Made by a program: the position numbers and the translations under genes. Below the pieces are notes generated by a model. The model ran no database searches and was not told the DNA's origin. It saw only the letters and a program-made list of their open reading frames with translations. Shown here one piece after another: positions 39,780 to 44,892 of a stretch of DNA of 64,000 nucleotides. The DNA comes from Saccharomonospora piscinae. GTDB lineage: Bacteria; Actinomycetota; Actinomycetes; Mycobacteriales; Pseudonocardiaceae. Numbering within the stretch: position 1 is the first letter of the stretch; each line of letters begins with the position of its first letter. The DNA is taken from assembly GCF_005862235.1 (NCBI RefSeq), contig NZ_VCEK01000003.1, forward strand, positions 390,480 through 454,479, written 5' to 3'.

Positions 39780-40880
39780 GTGAGTCTGACCCTCGGCATC
39801 GTCGGCTTGCCCAACGTCGGCAAGTCCACCCTGTTCAACGCCCTGACCCGCGCCGACGTGCTCTCGGCGAACTACCCGTTCGCGACGATCGAGCCCAACG
39901 TCGGGGTGGTGCCGCTGCCGGACCCCCGGCTCGACACGCTCGCGGAGCTGTTCAGCTCCGCCAAGACGGTCCCCGCGACCGTCTCGTTCGTGGACATCGC
40001 GGGCATCGTCAAGGGCGCGTCCGAGGGTGCGGGACTGGGGAACAAGTTCCTCGCCAACATTCGTGAGGCGAACGCGATCTGCCAGGTCATCCGGGTGTTC
40101 GACGACCCGGACGTCACCCACGTGGACGGCAAGGTCGACGCCCTGTCCGACATCGAGACGATCAACACTGAGCTGATCCTCGCGGACCTGCAGACGCTGG
40201 AGAAGGCGCTGCCCCGGCTGGAGAAGGAGGCGCGCACCAAGAAGGAGCGGCGCCCCGAGCTGGAGAACACGCAGCGCGCCAAGGACATTCTCGACTCCGG
40301 CCGGACGCTGTTCTCGGCGCGCGACGAGGTGGACCTCGACGGGCTGCGCGAGCTGAGCCTGCTCACGGCCAAGCCGTTCCTGTACGTGTTCAACGCCGAC
40401 GAGCCGGTGCTGACCGACCCGCAGCGGCGCGCGGAACTCGCGAAGCTCGTCGAACCCGCCGACGCCGTGTTCCTCGACGCCAAGGTGGAGTCGGAGCTGC
40501 TGGAACTCGACGACGAGGAGTCGGTGCGCGAGCTGCTGGAGTCCGTCGGCCAGGAGGAGCCGGGCCTGTCGGCCCTGGCGCGGGCCGGTTTCCACACGCT
40601 CGGGTTGCAGACCTACCTCACGGCGGGCCCCAAGGAGGCCCGCGCCTGGACGATCCCGCAGGGCGCGACGGCACCGCAGGCGGCTGGCGTGATCCACACC
40701 GACTTCGAACGCGGGTTCATCAAGGCCGAGGTGATCTCCTTCGGCGATCTGGTCGAGGCTGGGTCGATGGCGGCGGCTCGCTCGGCGGGCAAGGTCCGCA
40801 TAGAGGGCAAGGACTACGTCATGGCCGACGGCGACGTGGTGGAGTTCCGACACAATACAACCTCTGCCTCGAAGAAGTAG
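39780..40880 (+). CDS. ychF: Ribosome-binding GTPase/ATPase YchF with altered C-terminus
   Basis: Predicted 366 aa Obg-family NTPase. P-loop GLPNVGKS (residues 9-16), FVDIAGIVKGASEGAGLGNKFL, NADEP nucleotide-specificity region and a C-terminal TGS/YchF domain (GWTIPQ-type AWTIPQGATAPQAAGVIH). GTG 39780 follows TAGACT by 8 bases, so a leaderless start is likely. YchF proteins normally end in GDVVxFxFNV; here VVEF is followed by RHNTTSASKK and a stop. The natural-looking end (VVEFRFDV) is found 3.2 kb downstream at 44062-44085, so an inserted restriction-modification island has replaced the tail. Confidence 0.94.
   Translation: MSLTLGIVGLPNVGKSTLFNALTRADVLSANYPFATIEPNVGVVPLPDPRLDTLAELFSSAKTVPATVSFVDIAGIVKGASEGAGLGNKFLANIREANAICQVIRVFDDPDVTHVDGKVDALSDIETINTELILADLQTLEKALPRLEKEARTKKERRPELENTQRAKDILDSGRTLFSARDEVDLDGLRELSLLTAKPFLYVFNADEPVLTDPQRRAELAKLVEPADAVFLDAKVESELLELDDEESVRELLESVGQEEPGLSALARAGFHTLGLQTYLTAGPKEARAWTIPQGATAPQAAGVIHTDFERGFIKAEVISFGDLVEAGSMAAARSAGKVRIEGKDYVMADGDVVEFRHNTTSASKK
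40834..40849 (+). repeat. Left 16-bp direct repeat of the RM island
   Basis: ACGTGGTGGAGTTCCG inside the last codons of ychF, identical to 44060-44075. The two copies bound a 3,226-bp unit holding the RM genes. A shorter shared string, AATACAACC, follows at 40854-40862 and recurs at 44030-44038 just inside the right end. Confidence 0.85.
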
Positions 40881-40888
40881 GCGCTGTC

Positions 40889-42751
40889 ATGGCAGAGAGC
40901 ACCACGGAGAATCTGTTCCGCGAGTTCTACGGGGCCTCGACGTTCGTCGAGAAGCGCGACATCCCGAAGAAGTTCGGCTTCCAGTCCAAGCGCAAGGGGT
41001 CGACCGACGACGGCTTCCCCGACTTCTTCAAGGACATGGGGTCGTGGCTCATCGTCGTCGAGGCCAAGTCCGGTGAGCCGGGGCCGCGATCGGACCACGC
41101 CGCAGCCCTGACCGACGTGCGCAGCTACATGATTAACAACGCGGTGCCCCACACCGACGTCGTCGGCATCGCCGTCTCCGGCCAGACCCTCGAGAGCCTG
41201 CGCGTCACCCATCTGCTGCGCAAAGGCGACAGCGACGAGATCGAAGAGCTCGAGGGCCTGCAGAGCCTGGTGAGCCTTGAAGCGCTCAGCAACCACTACG
41301 CGGCCGCAGCCATCGGCGACCCGCTCTCCGACACCCAGTTGCGGCGCTTCCTGCGGCGGCTCAACGAGCGCTTCCACAAGGACTCTCGGGTGCGGGACAC
41401 CGAGCGCTCGCTGTTCTTCTCGGCGCTGATGATCGCGCTCGACGACGAGCCGTTCCGCAACGTCTACAAGTCGATTAGCAAGCCCGAGGACGACCGGCTG
41501 GTCGGGGCCAGGTATCTCAACGACCAAATCGTCGAGGCCGTCACCCGCCAGCTGGAAAAGAAGATCAACTCTGAGTCGAAGCAGATCGATTGGCGCGACC
41601 GCTTCGCGTTCGTGAAGACCGTCGACATTCCGCTCGACGAGTACAAGGAGATCATCGGCGAGATCGACGAGCGGGTGCACCAGCCGTCGAAGCGCTCGGT
41701 GAAGCGGGACATCTTGGGCCGTGCGTACAAGATCTTCCTGTCGCGCGCCGGCAAGATGGACAACAAGAACATCATCCTGACGCCGGACCACATCAAGACC
41801 TTCATGGTCGACCTGGCCAGGCTAGGGCGCGACGACGTCGTCCTCGACACCTGCATGGGCTCCGGCGGCTTCCTCATGGATGCGATGGAACAGCTCGTCG
41901 ACAAGGCCCATGGCGACGAGAAGGTGATTGACCACATCCACGAGCACCAGTTGATCGGGCTCGAGAACGACGCGATCCTGTTCGCCTTGGCCTGCTCGAA
42001 CATGTTCCTGCACGGCGACGGCCGCTCGAACCTTCTGTATCGCGACTCGCTCGTCACGCGCGGCAAGTCCTTCACGGTGGCCAAGCGGGACGAGAAGTTC
42101 CGCGACTACATCAAGAGCCAGAAGCCGACCAAGTGCGTGATTAACCCGCCGTACGAGAACGACAACCCGATCAACTTCACAATGTCGGCGATCGAGTACC
42201 TCGAGGAGGGCGGTCGTCTGGTCATTATCATGCCGAACAACACGCTGTCGAAGAACGCGAACCAGAAGGCAGCCCTCGCGATCCTTAAGCGTGCCCGCCT
42301 CGACTTCGTCATCGACATGCCCCAGCAGCTGTTCTTCGAGCAGAAGCGCGGCGTGAAGACGTCGATCTTCGGCTTCACCAAGACCAGCAACGGCCACGAC
42401 CACGACGCGCTGGTCACCTTCGTCGACATGGAAGATGACGGGCACGAGGTGCAGCTCGCGCACGGCCGCCGCGACATCGGCCGCTGGGGTGGAATCGCAA
42501 CCAACGTCCAGCGCGCCATCCGCGACGGCCTTGAAGACTGCGAGGCCCGCTCCTGGCGCACGCAGATCTTCGACGACGCTGGCAGGTTCCTGCCGCGCGG
42601 CGTCCGGCAGAACCCGTGGCCGCAGACGCAGTCGCACGACCTGGACACGGCGATCGCCGACTGGCAGGAAGCGCGTGCTGTCCGAGAGGAGGCCCAGGCG
42701 GCGATGGCGGCGGTGCTGTCGGCCGCGGGGATCGGCGGCTTCGATGACTGA
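40889..42751 (+). CDS. Restriction nuclease-methyltransferase fusion (BcgI-like RM subunit)
   Basis: Predicted 620 aa. The N-terminal part has a PD-(D/E)xK nuclease pattern: P44-D45, then E58-A59-K60 in WLIVVEAKSG. The centre and C-terminus are an N6-adenine methylase of the type I HsdM style: SAM motif VLDTCMGSGGF (D320, C322, G324) and catalytic NPPY at 419-422. Nuclease plus methylase in one chain with a separate specificity subunit fits type IIB/IIG systems such as BcgI, and the length is close to BcgI's catalytic subunit. It starts 8 bases after the ychF stop; no clear ribosome site. Codon use is visibly less GC-extreme than its neighbours. Confidence 0.85.
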   Translation: MAESTTENLFREFYGASTFVEKRDIPKKFGFQSKRKGSTDDGFPDFFKDMGSWLIVVEAKSGEPGPRSDHAAALTDVRSYMINNAVPHTDVVGIAVSGQTLESLRVTHLLRKGDSDEIEELEGLQSLVSLEALSNHYAAAAIGDPLSDTQLRRFLRRLNERFHKDSRVRDTERSLFFSALMIALDDEPFRNVYKSISKPEDDRLVGARYLNDQIVEAVTRQLEKKINSESKQIDWRDRFAFVKTVDIPLDEYKEIIGEIDERVHQPSKRSVKRDILGRAYKIFLSRAGKMDNKNIILTPDHIKTFMVDLARLGRDDVVLDTCMGSGGFLMDAMEQLVDKAHGDEKVIDHIHEHQLIGLENDAILFALACSNMFLHGDGRSNLLYRDSLVTRGKSFTVAKRDEKFRDYIKSQKPTKCVINPPYENDNPINFTMSAIEYLEEGGRLVIIMPNNTLSKNANQKAALAILKRARLDFVIDMPQQLFFEQKRGVKTSIFGFTKTSNGHDHDALVTFVDMEDDGHEVQLAHGRRDIGRWGGIATNVQRAIRDGLEDCEARSWRTQIFDDAGRFLPRGVRQNPWPQTQSHDLDTAIADWQEARAVREEAQAAMAAVLSAAGIGGFDD

Positions 42752-43940
42752 GTGGCCCTCTGTTCCGCTCGCTAAGCTCGTGACCCAGCATGTCCCGGAC
42801 CTGGTCACGCCCGCAGACGACGACATCGTGCGGTTCGCTGGCGTGCGCTGGTACGGCGACGGCCTGTTCGTGCGCGAGCAGCGCAAGGGCTCCGCGGTCA
42901 AGGCGAAGTGCTACGCGTTGAAGCCGGGCCTGCTGGTCTACAACCGGCTCTTCGCCTGGAAGCAGTCGTTCGCGGTCGTCACCGACGAGTTCGACGGCGT
43001 TGTGGTCTCGAACGAGTTCCCTCAGTTCGAGGTGGACGCCACGCAGGCGACGCCCGAGTTCCTCGCCCTCTACTGCTCCTCGCCCGTATTCGCGTCCAAG
43101 GCGCTGAGCCTGTCGTCCGGATCAGCAGCCGTGAGCCGGAACCGGCTGAAGGTGGCCGACTTCCTCCGCTTGGAGGTCGCGTGCCCGCCGCTTCCGGTGC
43201 AGGAGCGCATCCTCGAGGTCATCTCGGCCGTCGATGTCGTTATCGACGCGTTGCTCGCTGAGGCCGAGGCCGCAGAAACAGCCCGGACCGCACTGCTCAA
43301 CGAATTGCTGCAGCGACGGGACGAGACGTGGACCGACACGCCGATCGGCAAGCTGGGCACCGTCACCCGGGGCAAGCGATTCATCAAGTCCGACTACGTC
43401 GAGAGCGGCATCGGCTGCATCCACTACTCGCAGATCCACACGGACTTCGGCGCGCACACCGACGAGGTCCACTCCTGGTTGCCGGAGGAGATGCGCCCCA
43501 AGCTGCGGTTCGCCAAGCCCGACAATCTCGTGATCGCCGGCACCAGCGAGAACGTCGACGGGGTCCTGAAGGCCGTTGCCTGGCTCGGCGACGAGGACGT
43601 GGCGTTGCACGACGACGCCTACATCTTCGAGCACGGACTGGAGCCCCGGTTCGCGTCCTACGCCTTTGCGTCTCCGGAGTTCCGCGCGCAGCTGCCAGCC
43701 GTGATCTCGAATACCAAGGTCGTTCGTGTCTCCAAGGACGCACTTAAGCGGTTGACCATCCCGGTACCGCTGCCCGAGACGCAGAAGGAGATCGCCGACA
43801 CCATGGACGCCATCGACCGTCAAGTGCAGGCGACCTCGGACGAGGTGGCCCGCGCCCAGACCGTGCGCGCAGCGCTGTTGGACGCGCTGCTGAACCACAA
43901 GATCGAGGTCACGCCAGCCGAAGCCGGTGACGACTCGTAG
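42744..43940 (+). CDS. RM system specificity (S) subunit
   Basis: Predicted 398 aa with two half-subunits, each a target recognition domain plus a helical spacer. Spacer 1 begins at KVADFLRLEVACPPLPVQERILEVI and runs through LLAEAEAAETARTALLNELLQRRDE; spacer 2 begins at LTIPVPLPETQKEIADTMDAIDRQV and ends in ALLDALLNHK. This is the HsdS layout and predicts a bipartite, asymmetric target. ATG 42744 overlaps the catalytic subunit stop by 8 bases, so the two are coupled. A terminator follows at 43965-43998. Confidence 0.88.
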   Translation: MTEWPSVPLAKLVTQHVPDLVTPADDDIVRFAGVRWYGDGLFVREQRKGSAVKAKCYALKPGLLVYNRLFAWKQSFAVVTDEFDGVVVSNEFPQFEVDATQATPEFLALYCSSPVFASKALSLSSGSAAVSRNRLKVADFLRLEVACPPLPVQERILEVISAVDVVIDALLAEAEAAETARTALLNELLQRRDETWTDTPIGKLGTVTRGKRFIKSDYVESGIGCIHYSQIHTDFGAHTDEVHSWLPEEMRPKLRFAKPDNLVIAGTSENVDGVLKAVAWLGDEDVALHDDAYIFEHGLEPRFASYAFASPEFRAQLPAVISNTKVVRVSKDALKRLTIPVPLPETQKEIADTMDAIDRQVQATSDEVARAQTVRAALLDALLNHKIEVTPAEAGDDS

Positions 43941-43964
43941 CGGTCGCAACTCCTTCGCTGTGTC

Positions 43965-43998
43965 AGAAGCCCCATGATCGCGAGATCGTGGGGCTTCT
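43965..43998 (+). terminator. Terminator after the RM operon
   Basis: AGAAGCCCCATGATC (43965-43979) pairs with GATCGTGGGGCTTCT (43984-43998) over 15 bp with one G-T wobble and a GCGA tetraloop, followed by TCGTCG. It lies 24 bases after the S-subunit stop. Confidence 0.85.
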
Positions 43999-44059
43999 TC
44001 GTCGACTCATCGCGACACGGGCTCTTGTAAATACAACCCTCCATCACTTCTTTGCCGAT

Positions 44060-44085
44060 ACGTGGTGGAGTTCCGGTTCGACGTG
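44060..44085 (+). pseudogene. Displaced 3' end of ychF with right direct repeat
   Basis: Positions 44060-44075 repeat the 16 bp of ychF exactly; the reading frame continues VVEFRFDV to 44085, the expected YchF C-terminus, and the next codon is TCA where TGA would be expected. Upstream, GCCGAT resembles the GCCGAC of intact ychF but a few bases are missing. Best read as the original gene end pushed away by the island. Confidence 0.75.
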
Positions 44086-44275
44086 TCAGCGTTCCTGCCA
44101 GCCCGCGCCCGGCCGCGCGCAGGCCCATATCGGCTCCGCGCTCATGCGGTCTGCGCAGGAGTTCGGTGGTGTCGGCGATCTTCCGGTTCCGGAACGCAGC
44201 GACGCCGCCCGAGCGGTGCAATTCGAGTGACTGTCCTCGACATCGGGTGTGCTACCAAAACGGTATCATTGAGTC

Positions 44276-44479
44276 ATGGCGATGACACTGCGATTGACCG
44301 AAGAGCAGGAGCGGGCCCTCGCTCTGCTCGCCGAGTCCGAAGGCGTCAGCAAGCAGGAGGCGGCGGTACGGGCCATCACCGAGGCCGCGGCCCGGCGTGT
44401 GCGCGACGAACGGGTACGCGCGTTGTCTCGCGAAGGCCGCGATCGCTATGCCGGATTACTCGACCGCCTCGCCCAGTGA
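44276..44479 (+). CDS. Antitoxin of a Doc-type toxin-antitoxin pair
   Basis: Predicted 67 aa. The sequence MTLRLTEEQERALALLAESEGVSKQEAAVRAI has the beta strand plus two helices of a ribbon-helix-helix (CopG/Arc-like) DNA-binding fold, followed by a charged C-terminal helix that would cover the toxin. It probably autoregulates through the dyad at 44253-44265. Its stop overlaps the toxin GTG by 4 bases (GTGA). Confidence 0.85.
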   Translation: MAMTLRLTEEQERALALLAESEGVSKQEAAVRAITEAAARRVRDERVRALSREGRDRYAGLLDRLAQ

Positions 44480-44892
44480 GGGTGGAGTACCTCACCCTGG
44501 AGGATCTGCTTGGTCTCGCCGACGACCTGGGTGTACTCGAAGTACGTGACCTTGGTCTGCTCGACTCGGCGGCTCATCGCCCGAAGTCGTCGGTGATGGC
44601 GCAGGATGCCTATCCGACGGTGCATGAGAAGGCGGCCGTGCTGCTGGAGTCGATTGTGCGCCACCAGCCGTTGATCGACGGCAACAAGCGGTTGGGCTGG
44701 ATGGCCACGTTCACGTTCTACGGCCTCAACGGCGTCGATCTGGACGCTCCCGAGGACGACGCCTATGACCTGGTGATCGGCGTGTCCACCGGGTCGCTGA
44801 GCTACGGCGACGTCGCATCGCGCCTTGCCGGGTGGACGCGGCCCGAGGTCGCGGGGCCTCGCGGTCCGGCGGAGTTCGGCTTCACCGTGTGA
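44476..44892 (+). CDS. Doc/Fic-family toxin with altered catalytic motif
   Basis: Predicted 138 aa. It shows the compact Doc fold pattern, with YPTVHEKAAVLLESIVRHQPLIDGNKRLGW. Doc toxins phosphorylate EF-Tu using the motif HxFxDANK; here the segment is R-H63-Q64-P-L-I-D68-G-N70-K-R72. Aligned on DGNKR, the catalytic His position holds Gln, with a His one residue earlier. It may be inactive, weak or use a shifted His. GTG 44476 overlaps the antitoxin stop. Confidence 0.85.
   Translation: MRVEYLTLEDLLGLADDLGVLEVRDLGLLDSAAHRPKSSVMAQDAYPTVHEKAAVLLESIVRHQPLIDGNKRLGWMATFTFYGLNGVDLDAPEDDAYDLVIGVSTGSLSYGDVASRLAGWTRPEVAGPRGPAEFGFTV

Follow-up and report, generated by a model that had tools for sequence, protein, structure and literature searches.

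A BcgI-like restriction-modification island at the 3′ end of ychF in Saccharomonospora piscinae and its probable origin as an element of a serine-integrase family

Introduction

Several described kinds of mobile element bear on the locus reported here (articles are cited by PMC number, for excerpts of their text). Cis-mobilizable elements (CIMEs) and tandem accretion have been defined (PMC5704250), the staphylococcal cassette chromosome (SCC) and the enterococcal cassette chromosome lie at rlmH (PMC6222049), and actinomycete integrative and conjugative elements (AICEs) form a further class (PMC3218068). In pneumococci a prophage with att repeats adjoins ychF (PMC6375853; PMC8637289), and a review on actinomycetes mentions ychF once (PMC12811286). 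In serine integrase systems, the zinc-ribbon motif lies 5 bp further inward in attB than in attP (PMC3783163). Here we analyze a two-gene restriction-modification (R-M) island at the 3′ end of ychF in Saccharomonospora piscinae, located in a 64,000-nucleotide stretch of contig NZ_VCEK01000003.1 (positions 390,480 to 454,479, forward strand; this whole stretch is called the window). R-M systems of the BcgI type (type IIB) combine a fused nuclease-methyltransferase with a specificity (S) subunit that has two target-recognition domains and cleave on either side of a bipartite site, and an initial annotation of the window had assigned the island to this type.

Results

The island and its boundaries

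We regard the insertion of the R-M unit into the ychF end in this lineage as practically certain, and consider it probable that the unit is a CIME-like, site-specific element of a ychF-directed large-serine-integrase family whose integrase is now missing. The features concerned, in window coordinates, are the following.

39780..40880, + strand: ychF (TIGR00092, E 4.7e-127, and tail comparison); native body, final codons replaced
40834..40849, + strand: left copy of the 16-bp core (attL), equal to the VVEFR codons of ychF; exact
40850..40880, + strand: element-derived half-site that also codes the new YchF tail (alignment of substitute tails)
40854..40862, + strand: left copy of AATACAACC, within the element half-site
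40889..42751, + strand: BcgI-A-like fused nuclease/N6-adenine methyltransferase, 620 amino acids (PF02384; PADLOC type IIG; motifs)
42744..43940, + strand: S subunit, 398 amino acids, two target-recognition domains (PF01420 in two stretches)
43965..43998, + strand: terminator-like hairpin 3′ of the S gene (fold z -3.6 against shuffles)
44030..44038, + strand: right copy of AATACAACC
44060..44075, + strand: right copy of the 16-bp core (attR); exact
44062..44085, + strand: displaced native ychF end VVEFRFDV, stop codon lost (matches congener ychF ends)

The last codons of ychF have been exchanged: the gene end reads GDVVEFRHNTTSASKK followed by the stop codon, and the product terminates in RHNTTSASKK in place of the native RFNV. 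The initial annotation had called this C-terminus atypical, and indeed 11 of 11 congeners examined, all without the R-M genes, end in RFNV and none in RHNTTSASKK. The native end VVEFRFDV lies where the initial annotation had placed it, and reading continues past it without the ychF stop codon. The 16-mer ACGTGGTGGAGTTCCG is exact at 40834-40849 and 44060-44075, which places 3.2 kb between the two ychF-end copies, and AATACAACC recurs inside both ends, at 40854 and 44030, on the + strand both times and nowhere else in the window. Both duplications had been noted in the initial annotation, and the right-hand repeat corresponds to the native ychF end at empty sites. In the 4.9-Mb genome the core has two exact copies, no site with one mismatch and 18 with two. 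Bare 16-bp repeats are nothing unusual in the window (33 different 16-mers recur within 5 kb, mostly in tandem), and the weight of this one therefore comes from its position and not from the repeat alone. A chance repeat was considered and rejected on position, genome uniqueness and the match to the empty site, although bare 16-mer repeats are not rare.

The right flank of the island is homologous to DNA lying 50-600 bp behind the ychF end in four congeners (G003, G001, G006, and G008; G and L numbers are our handles). When the two flanks are joined in silico, the alignment with G006 runs straight through the junction (289 columns, 73%); for the other five of six congeners tested, it covers the ychF part and no more than one additional piece. 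A search of the other 389 family genomes gave no R-M gene homologue at E≤1e-50. Taken with the RFNV tails of the congeners, the flank homology and the missing family homologue indicate that the unit entered by insertion and that the last codons were swapped in the process.

YchF ends could be read in 49 genomes of a 61-genome comparison set, and 44 of them end in RFNV (one with an extra Q). The remaining five are the window genome and four more distant genomes (G034, G054, G038, and G013) with RH..TS or RTGLTS tails. In two of these, G054 and G038, a displaced end and a serine integrase clearly mark a ychF element. In the ychF stretches of G034 (16 kb) and G013 (8.5 kb) the integrase clade described below was not found, nor was a displaced ychF end seen genome-wide at ≤3 mismatches, so that substitute-type tails can exist without a visible element. 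That RHNTTSASKK is an ordinary YchF variant was rejected, given that G054 and G038, with similar tails, are elements; G034 and G013 weigh on the other side.

The occurrence of substitute-type tails in these four genomes would also fit another reading of the window, in which the R-M genes arrived alongside a donor ychF tail through a homologous crossover in ychF, and longer ychF-like left arms on some later ychF-end copies at stacked loci (G374, G376, G383, and G100) would agree with such exchange. We consider this very improbable: as far as the core, the body of ychF agrees with that of congeners, a 16-bp repeat is short for ordinary exchange, and both G054 and G038 have a displaced end and are elements in their own right.

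The R-M genes and their relatives

Only 8 bp separate the ychF stop at 40880 from the R-M gene, which begins at 40889, as annotated. In its product, PD44-45, E58xK60, and NPPY419-422 are invariant in all seven aligned sequences, in keeping with a PD-(D/E)XK nuclease fused to an N6-adenine methyltransferase; an AlphaFold model built with seven sequences was too poor (pLDDT 43.7) to confirm the nuclease fold. The S subunit is separate and has two recognition domains, no separate HsdR accompanies it, and no third gene was called between the two cores. The pair thus has the composition of a BcgI-type system, a putative assignment made by sequence, and would be expected to restrict DNA. A promoter scan gave no + strand match, and the hairpin at 43965..43998 was not flagged by a terminator consensus scan; the pair is probably transcribed from the ychF promoter and ended by this hairpin.

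Close relatives of the R-M enzyme occur in six genomes of the GTDB collection (74-95% identity) and on two Dietzia plasmids (73%). These Dietzia kunjamensis plasmids (L087 and L088) also bear resistance genes and a recombinase-family protein. The enzyme of Micromonospora okii is 95% identical to that of the window as a protein, and 88.4% identical as DNA over 40871-43921, compared with 76.6% for ychF. Together with the lack of a family homologue, this difference points to recent horizontal transfer. The S subunit of M. okii is conserved with that of the window in both recognition halves (0.88 and 0.89), while the halves diverge independently in other relatives, such as Jonesia (0.70 and 0.22) and Oerskovia (0.33 and 0.70). 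The R-M genes lie downstream of ychF in three of seven chromosomal copies, namely the window, Actinomyces ruminicola (directly) and Jonesia, where another small gene, ending NAAEFRFQSTSGNKK, stands between ychF and the R-M pair. In Jonesia quinghaiensis (L083, 4900-12800) we also observed an apparent array after ychF, consisting of a small gene without Pfam match, the R-M pair, HipA, and a ychF-end-like site.

Serine integrases at ychF ends

No integrase was found among the genes called in the island, as the initial annotation had stated; at ychF ends elsewhere, large serine integrases are encoded within the elements (A. ruminicola, G038, G054, and G196). In A. ruminicola, the order is ychF (tail RTGLTSKR), an R-M enzyme 74% identical to that of the window, S, and a large serine integrase with Resolvase and Recombinase domains that overlaps S by 4 bp. 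Homologous cargo thus stands with a serine integrase at the same site. In G038, the displaced end follows the swapped ychF tail at a distance of 8.3 kb, a related integrase lies between the two, and the element (L061) carries an R-M pair, type III as read by eye. The elements of G054 and G196 measure 17 and 14.7 kb, and that of G196 carries Prim-Pol in addition to its serine integrase. Identity among the first three integrases that we compared was 37-50%.

We searched 386 family genomes at E≤1e-50 and 298 order genomes at E≤1e-80 and obtained 13 further genomes with an integrase of this clade. In 12 of them the gene either has a ychF-end site next to it or lies within a ychF-bounded element (one match weak). 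It adjoins the site in nine, and in G639 a weak site is present besides these; in G246, the recognizable frame runs from residue 95 on, right behind the site. The integrase of G580 lies just behind ychF (tail RTGLTSKK) and that of G038 within its ychF-bounded element, and in G619 no ychF-end site was found within 1.5 kb of the integrase. A separate observation concerns contig 58 of G247 (L134 and L135, 33.7 kb), which consists of mirror-image halves, each with a serine integrase adjoining a broken tyrosine recombinase.

The island has an attL and an attR with a common core at a fixed target, and its half-site at 40850..40880 contains the motif CAACCTCT, which starts 8 nt past GTTCCG. The motif CAACGTCT starts 3 nt past GTTCCG in native ychF and 8 nt past it in eight substitute tails; at offset 8, 47 of 64 letters match in these tails, and other offsets tried gave ≤22. 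Offsets of 3 and 8 nt amount to the same 5-bp shift between attB and attP as published (PMC3783163), with the attP motif further out, here for the right arm and eight tails.

Insertion may accordingly be pictured as follows. Recombination in the common core GTGGAGTTCCG would cut ychF within its final codons, and the element half-site would supply the in-frame tail RHNTTSASKK, so that the ychF reading frame stays open. The native end VVEFRFDV would be displaced 3.2 kb downstream, and the serine integrase gene would have been lost from the element. Of the initial proposal, movement in trans or by recombination at a gene end, the gene-end site stands, and the mechanism is most plausibly site-specific recombination by a serine integrase.

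A second, older cassette to the right

At the displaced end and to its right lie an antitoxin-like remnant and the genes of another unit.

44078..44230, + strand: remnant of an antitoxin-like gene, presumably FitA-like (blastn 77-78% identity; also behind ychF in G006 and G008)
44276..44479, + strand: small antitoxin-like gene, 67 amino acids, without Pfam match (homologous DNA behind ychF in G003 and G001)
44482..44892, + strand: Doc/Fic toxin gene (PF02661, E 4.8e-10) whose final codons are the decayed ychF-end site
44868..44889, + strand: third ychF-end copy, decayed

The two genes at 44276-44892 form a phd-doc-like toxin-antitoxin pair, the toxin gene entering the decayed site, and congener Doc proteins end in EPVEFRFNV (G009) and EPGEFRFNV (G004). 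As its gene runs into the ychF-end site, the Doc toxin seems to have borrowed the last codons and the stop of ychF. The decayed copy at 44868 and the congener Doc ends indicate that the island belongs to a two-unit array, in which the phd-doc-like cassette is older than the R-M island.

Stacked cassettes behind ychF

The 386 family genomes were also scanned with a 21-bp ychF-end pattern (one mismatch allowed, same strand). Two or more copies on one strand were present in 42 genomes, and these copies lie within 5.3 kb of each other in 31 and not in 11; the window genome is outside the 31 because its ychF end is swapped. A tblastn search of 32 stacked stretches with four large serine, one short serine, and two tyrosine recombinases gave one match, a 49-residue tyrosine-recombinase scrap in G345, and the stacked cassettes are apparently small and integrase-less.

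Cargo was sampled as 19 chosen proteins from 16 of the 31 loci plus the window Doc. Pfam matches were obtained for 15 of these 20 proteins and none for five; the domains were Abi_2, Fic (four, window Doc included), Schlafen-AlbA_2, PIN, ApeA, HipA, HIRAN, AbiEii, Mrr endonuclease, DUF4238, an IclR-type HTH, and an acetyltransferase. By our own reading, ten of the 16 loci carry a toxin-antitoxin or defence-type domain (G024, G239, G317, G322, G323, G374, G100, G133, G161, and G185), and others have metabolic-looking cargo by eye. In relatives, the ychF end is thus a wider hotspot at which elements of actinobacteria dock and stack, often with defence genes.

The arms of the sites were scored with a matrix made from ten integrase-element arms (G003 locus left out; G202 dropped for want of a pair). 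Among 30 loci, the 99.9th percentile of window 25-mers is surpassed by 25 of 40 later sites (median 11.1) and by two of 30 first sites (median 0.7); the 99th percentile is surpassed by 22 of 30 first sites, since the ends of the two arm types are usually similar. First sites are mostly ychF ends, three of the 30 (L099, L113, and L114) not being the gene's own end. Unlike the window unit, the stacked cassettes leave ychF with its native end, which is unexplained by an ordinary attP x attB reaction. At three loci (L096, L106, and that of G003) a second partial copy, e.g., GTTCCGGTTCAACGTCT, was seen 23 bp after the ychF end; such copies are perhaps the footprint of earlier events.

These cassettes raise the question of whether the window unit is not a dead remnant, and is instead an integrase-less cassette moving in trans with the serine integrase of another element. 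Stacking in 31 of 386 genomes against a clade integrase in seven of 386 (E≤1e-50), with no overlap, speaks for such movement, as do the integrase-element-type arms at 25 of 40 later and two of 30 first sites. Nevertheless, cassettes leave the native RFNV, an outcome not expected of a simple attP x attB reaction, and the window arm scores poorly on the matrix of integrase-element arms; we regard movement in trans as possible, if rather unlikely. More broadly, we propose, quite tentatively, that Actinomycetota harbor a ychF-anchored system composed of a dedicated serine-integrase clade and, in greater number, cassettes of one or two genes that lack an integrase and often serve defence. These cassettes would share the same arm beside a copy of the ychF end and would be inserted and stacked in trans, with a working ychF end kept at each insertion.

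Discussion

Loss of the integrase from an element of the ychF-directed serine-integrase family is the origin that we favor, and several observations weigh against it. The window genome contains neither a clade serine integrase (E≤1e-50) nor a ychF-associated tyrosine integrase (E≤1e-60). The right-hand arm of the island (the left arm of attR) scores -6.5 on the matrix of ten integrase-element arms (p 0.05), below ordinary ychF left arms (median 0.7), and under a cassette matrix it reaches p 0.03. Scoring of the 5-bp shift covered only the right arm, and no equally clean shift was apparent by eye on the left. In A. ruminicola no right-hand site was found in the 27.5 kb past the R-M start (≤3 mismatches), and ychF itself lay in the analyzed stretch for only four of the 13 integrase genomes (G196, G054, G038, and G580). 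Moreover, ychF is missing from the 6 kb upstream in four of the six other chromosomal R-M relatives (M. okii, Oerskovia, SN12, and Leucobacter), which implies that the cargo travels by other routes too; M. okii has merely a ychF-end-like scrap ahead of the R-M gene.

A further counterweight is a tyrosine-recombinase family that is likewise present at ychF ends, with a gene just past the ychF end and convergent to ychF in G025 and G222, and a shortened copy adjoining a displaced ychF end in G036. Direct repeats at a gene 3′ end would fit an element of this class, in which case the serine-integrase elements would be neighbors of the island at a hotspot and nothing more. We think this unlikely, given that the window tail has the 5-bp-shifted motif common to serine-integrase elements, that A. 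ruminicola pairs homologous R-M cargo with a serine integrase, and that the ychF of G025, adjoining an intact tyrosine recombinase, has kept its RFNV tail.

Comparison with known systems

CIMEs, SCC, and AICEs are known kinds of element, while the Actinomycetota ychF site, its dedicated integrase clade, and the small-cassette pool were not found in the open-access literature searched. No report of actinobacterial ychF elements was found there, most matches being judged by their search entries and subscription papers lying mostly outside this literature, and a text search of the AICE paper (PMC3218068) for 'ychF' was negative. The pneumococcal prophage differs in that its 14-bp repeat lies upstream of ychF and alters the promoter (PMC6375853; PMC8637289), whereas here the coding 3′ end is used. 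With AICEs there is a partial likeness, as the G196 element has two AICE marks, a serine integrase and Prim-Pol; the window unit has neither.

A fixed, widely conserved landing site would allow the swapping of defence and toxin-antitoxin genes among actinobacteria. The flanking repeats make cargo borders legible, so that the DNA downstream of ychF is a place to seek new defence genes, and the locus points to a serine-integrase clade with predictable attB and attP sites.

The closest likeness is to CIMEs (PMC5704250). The window unit keeps both ends (attL and attR, the right arm being weak), has no integration or transfer genes, and stands in tandem with a remnant at one gene end. It differs in the dedicated serine-integrase family and the many one- to two-gene units at one protein-gene site, and in that transfer genes were not seen in the window unit. 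The ychF elements share with SCC and the enterococcal cassette chromosome (PMC6222049) large serine recombinases, the 3′ end of a conserved gene, att repeats, and varied cargo. Their target, however, is ychF and not rlmH, their hosts are Actinomycetota, and their integrases are single Resolvase plus Recombinase proteins and not a ccrAB pair; the island itself lies at ychF with no recombinase inside, in contrast to the rlmH location and ccr recombinases of SCC. If the tentative proposal above is true, the ychF-anchored cassette system would stand beside integron arrays and SCC as their counterpart based on serine integrases.

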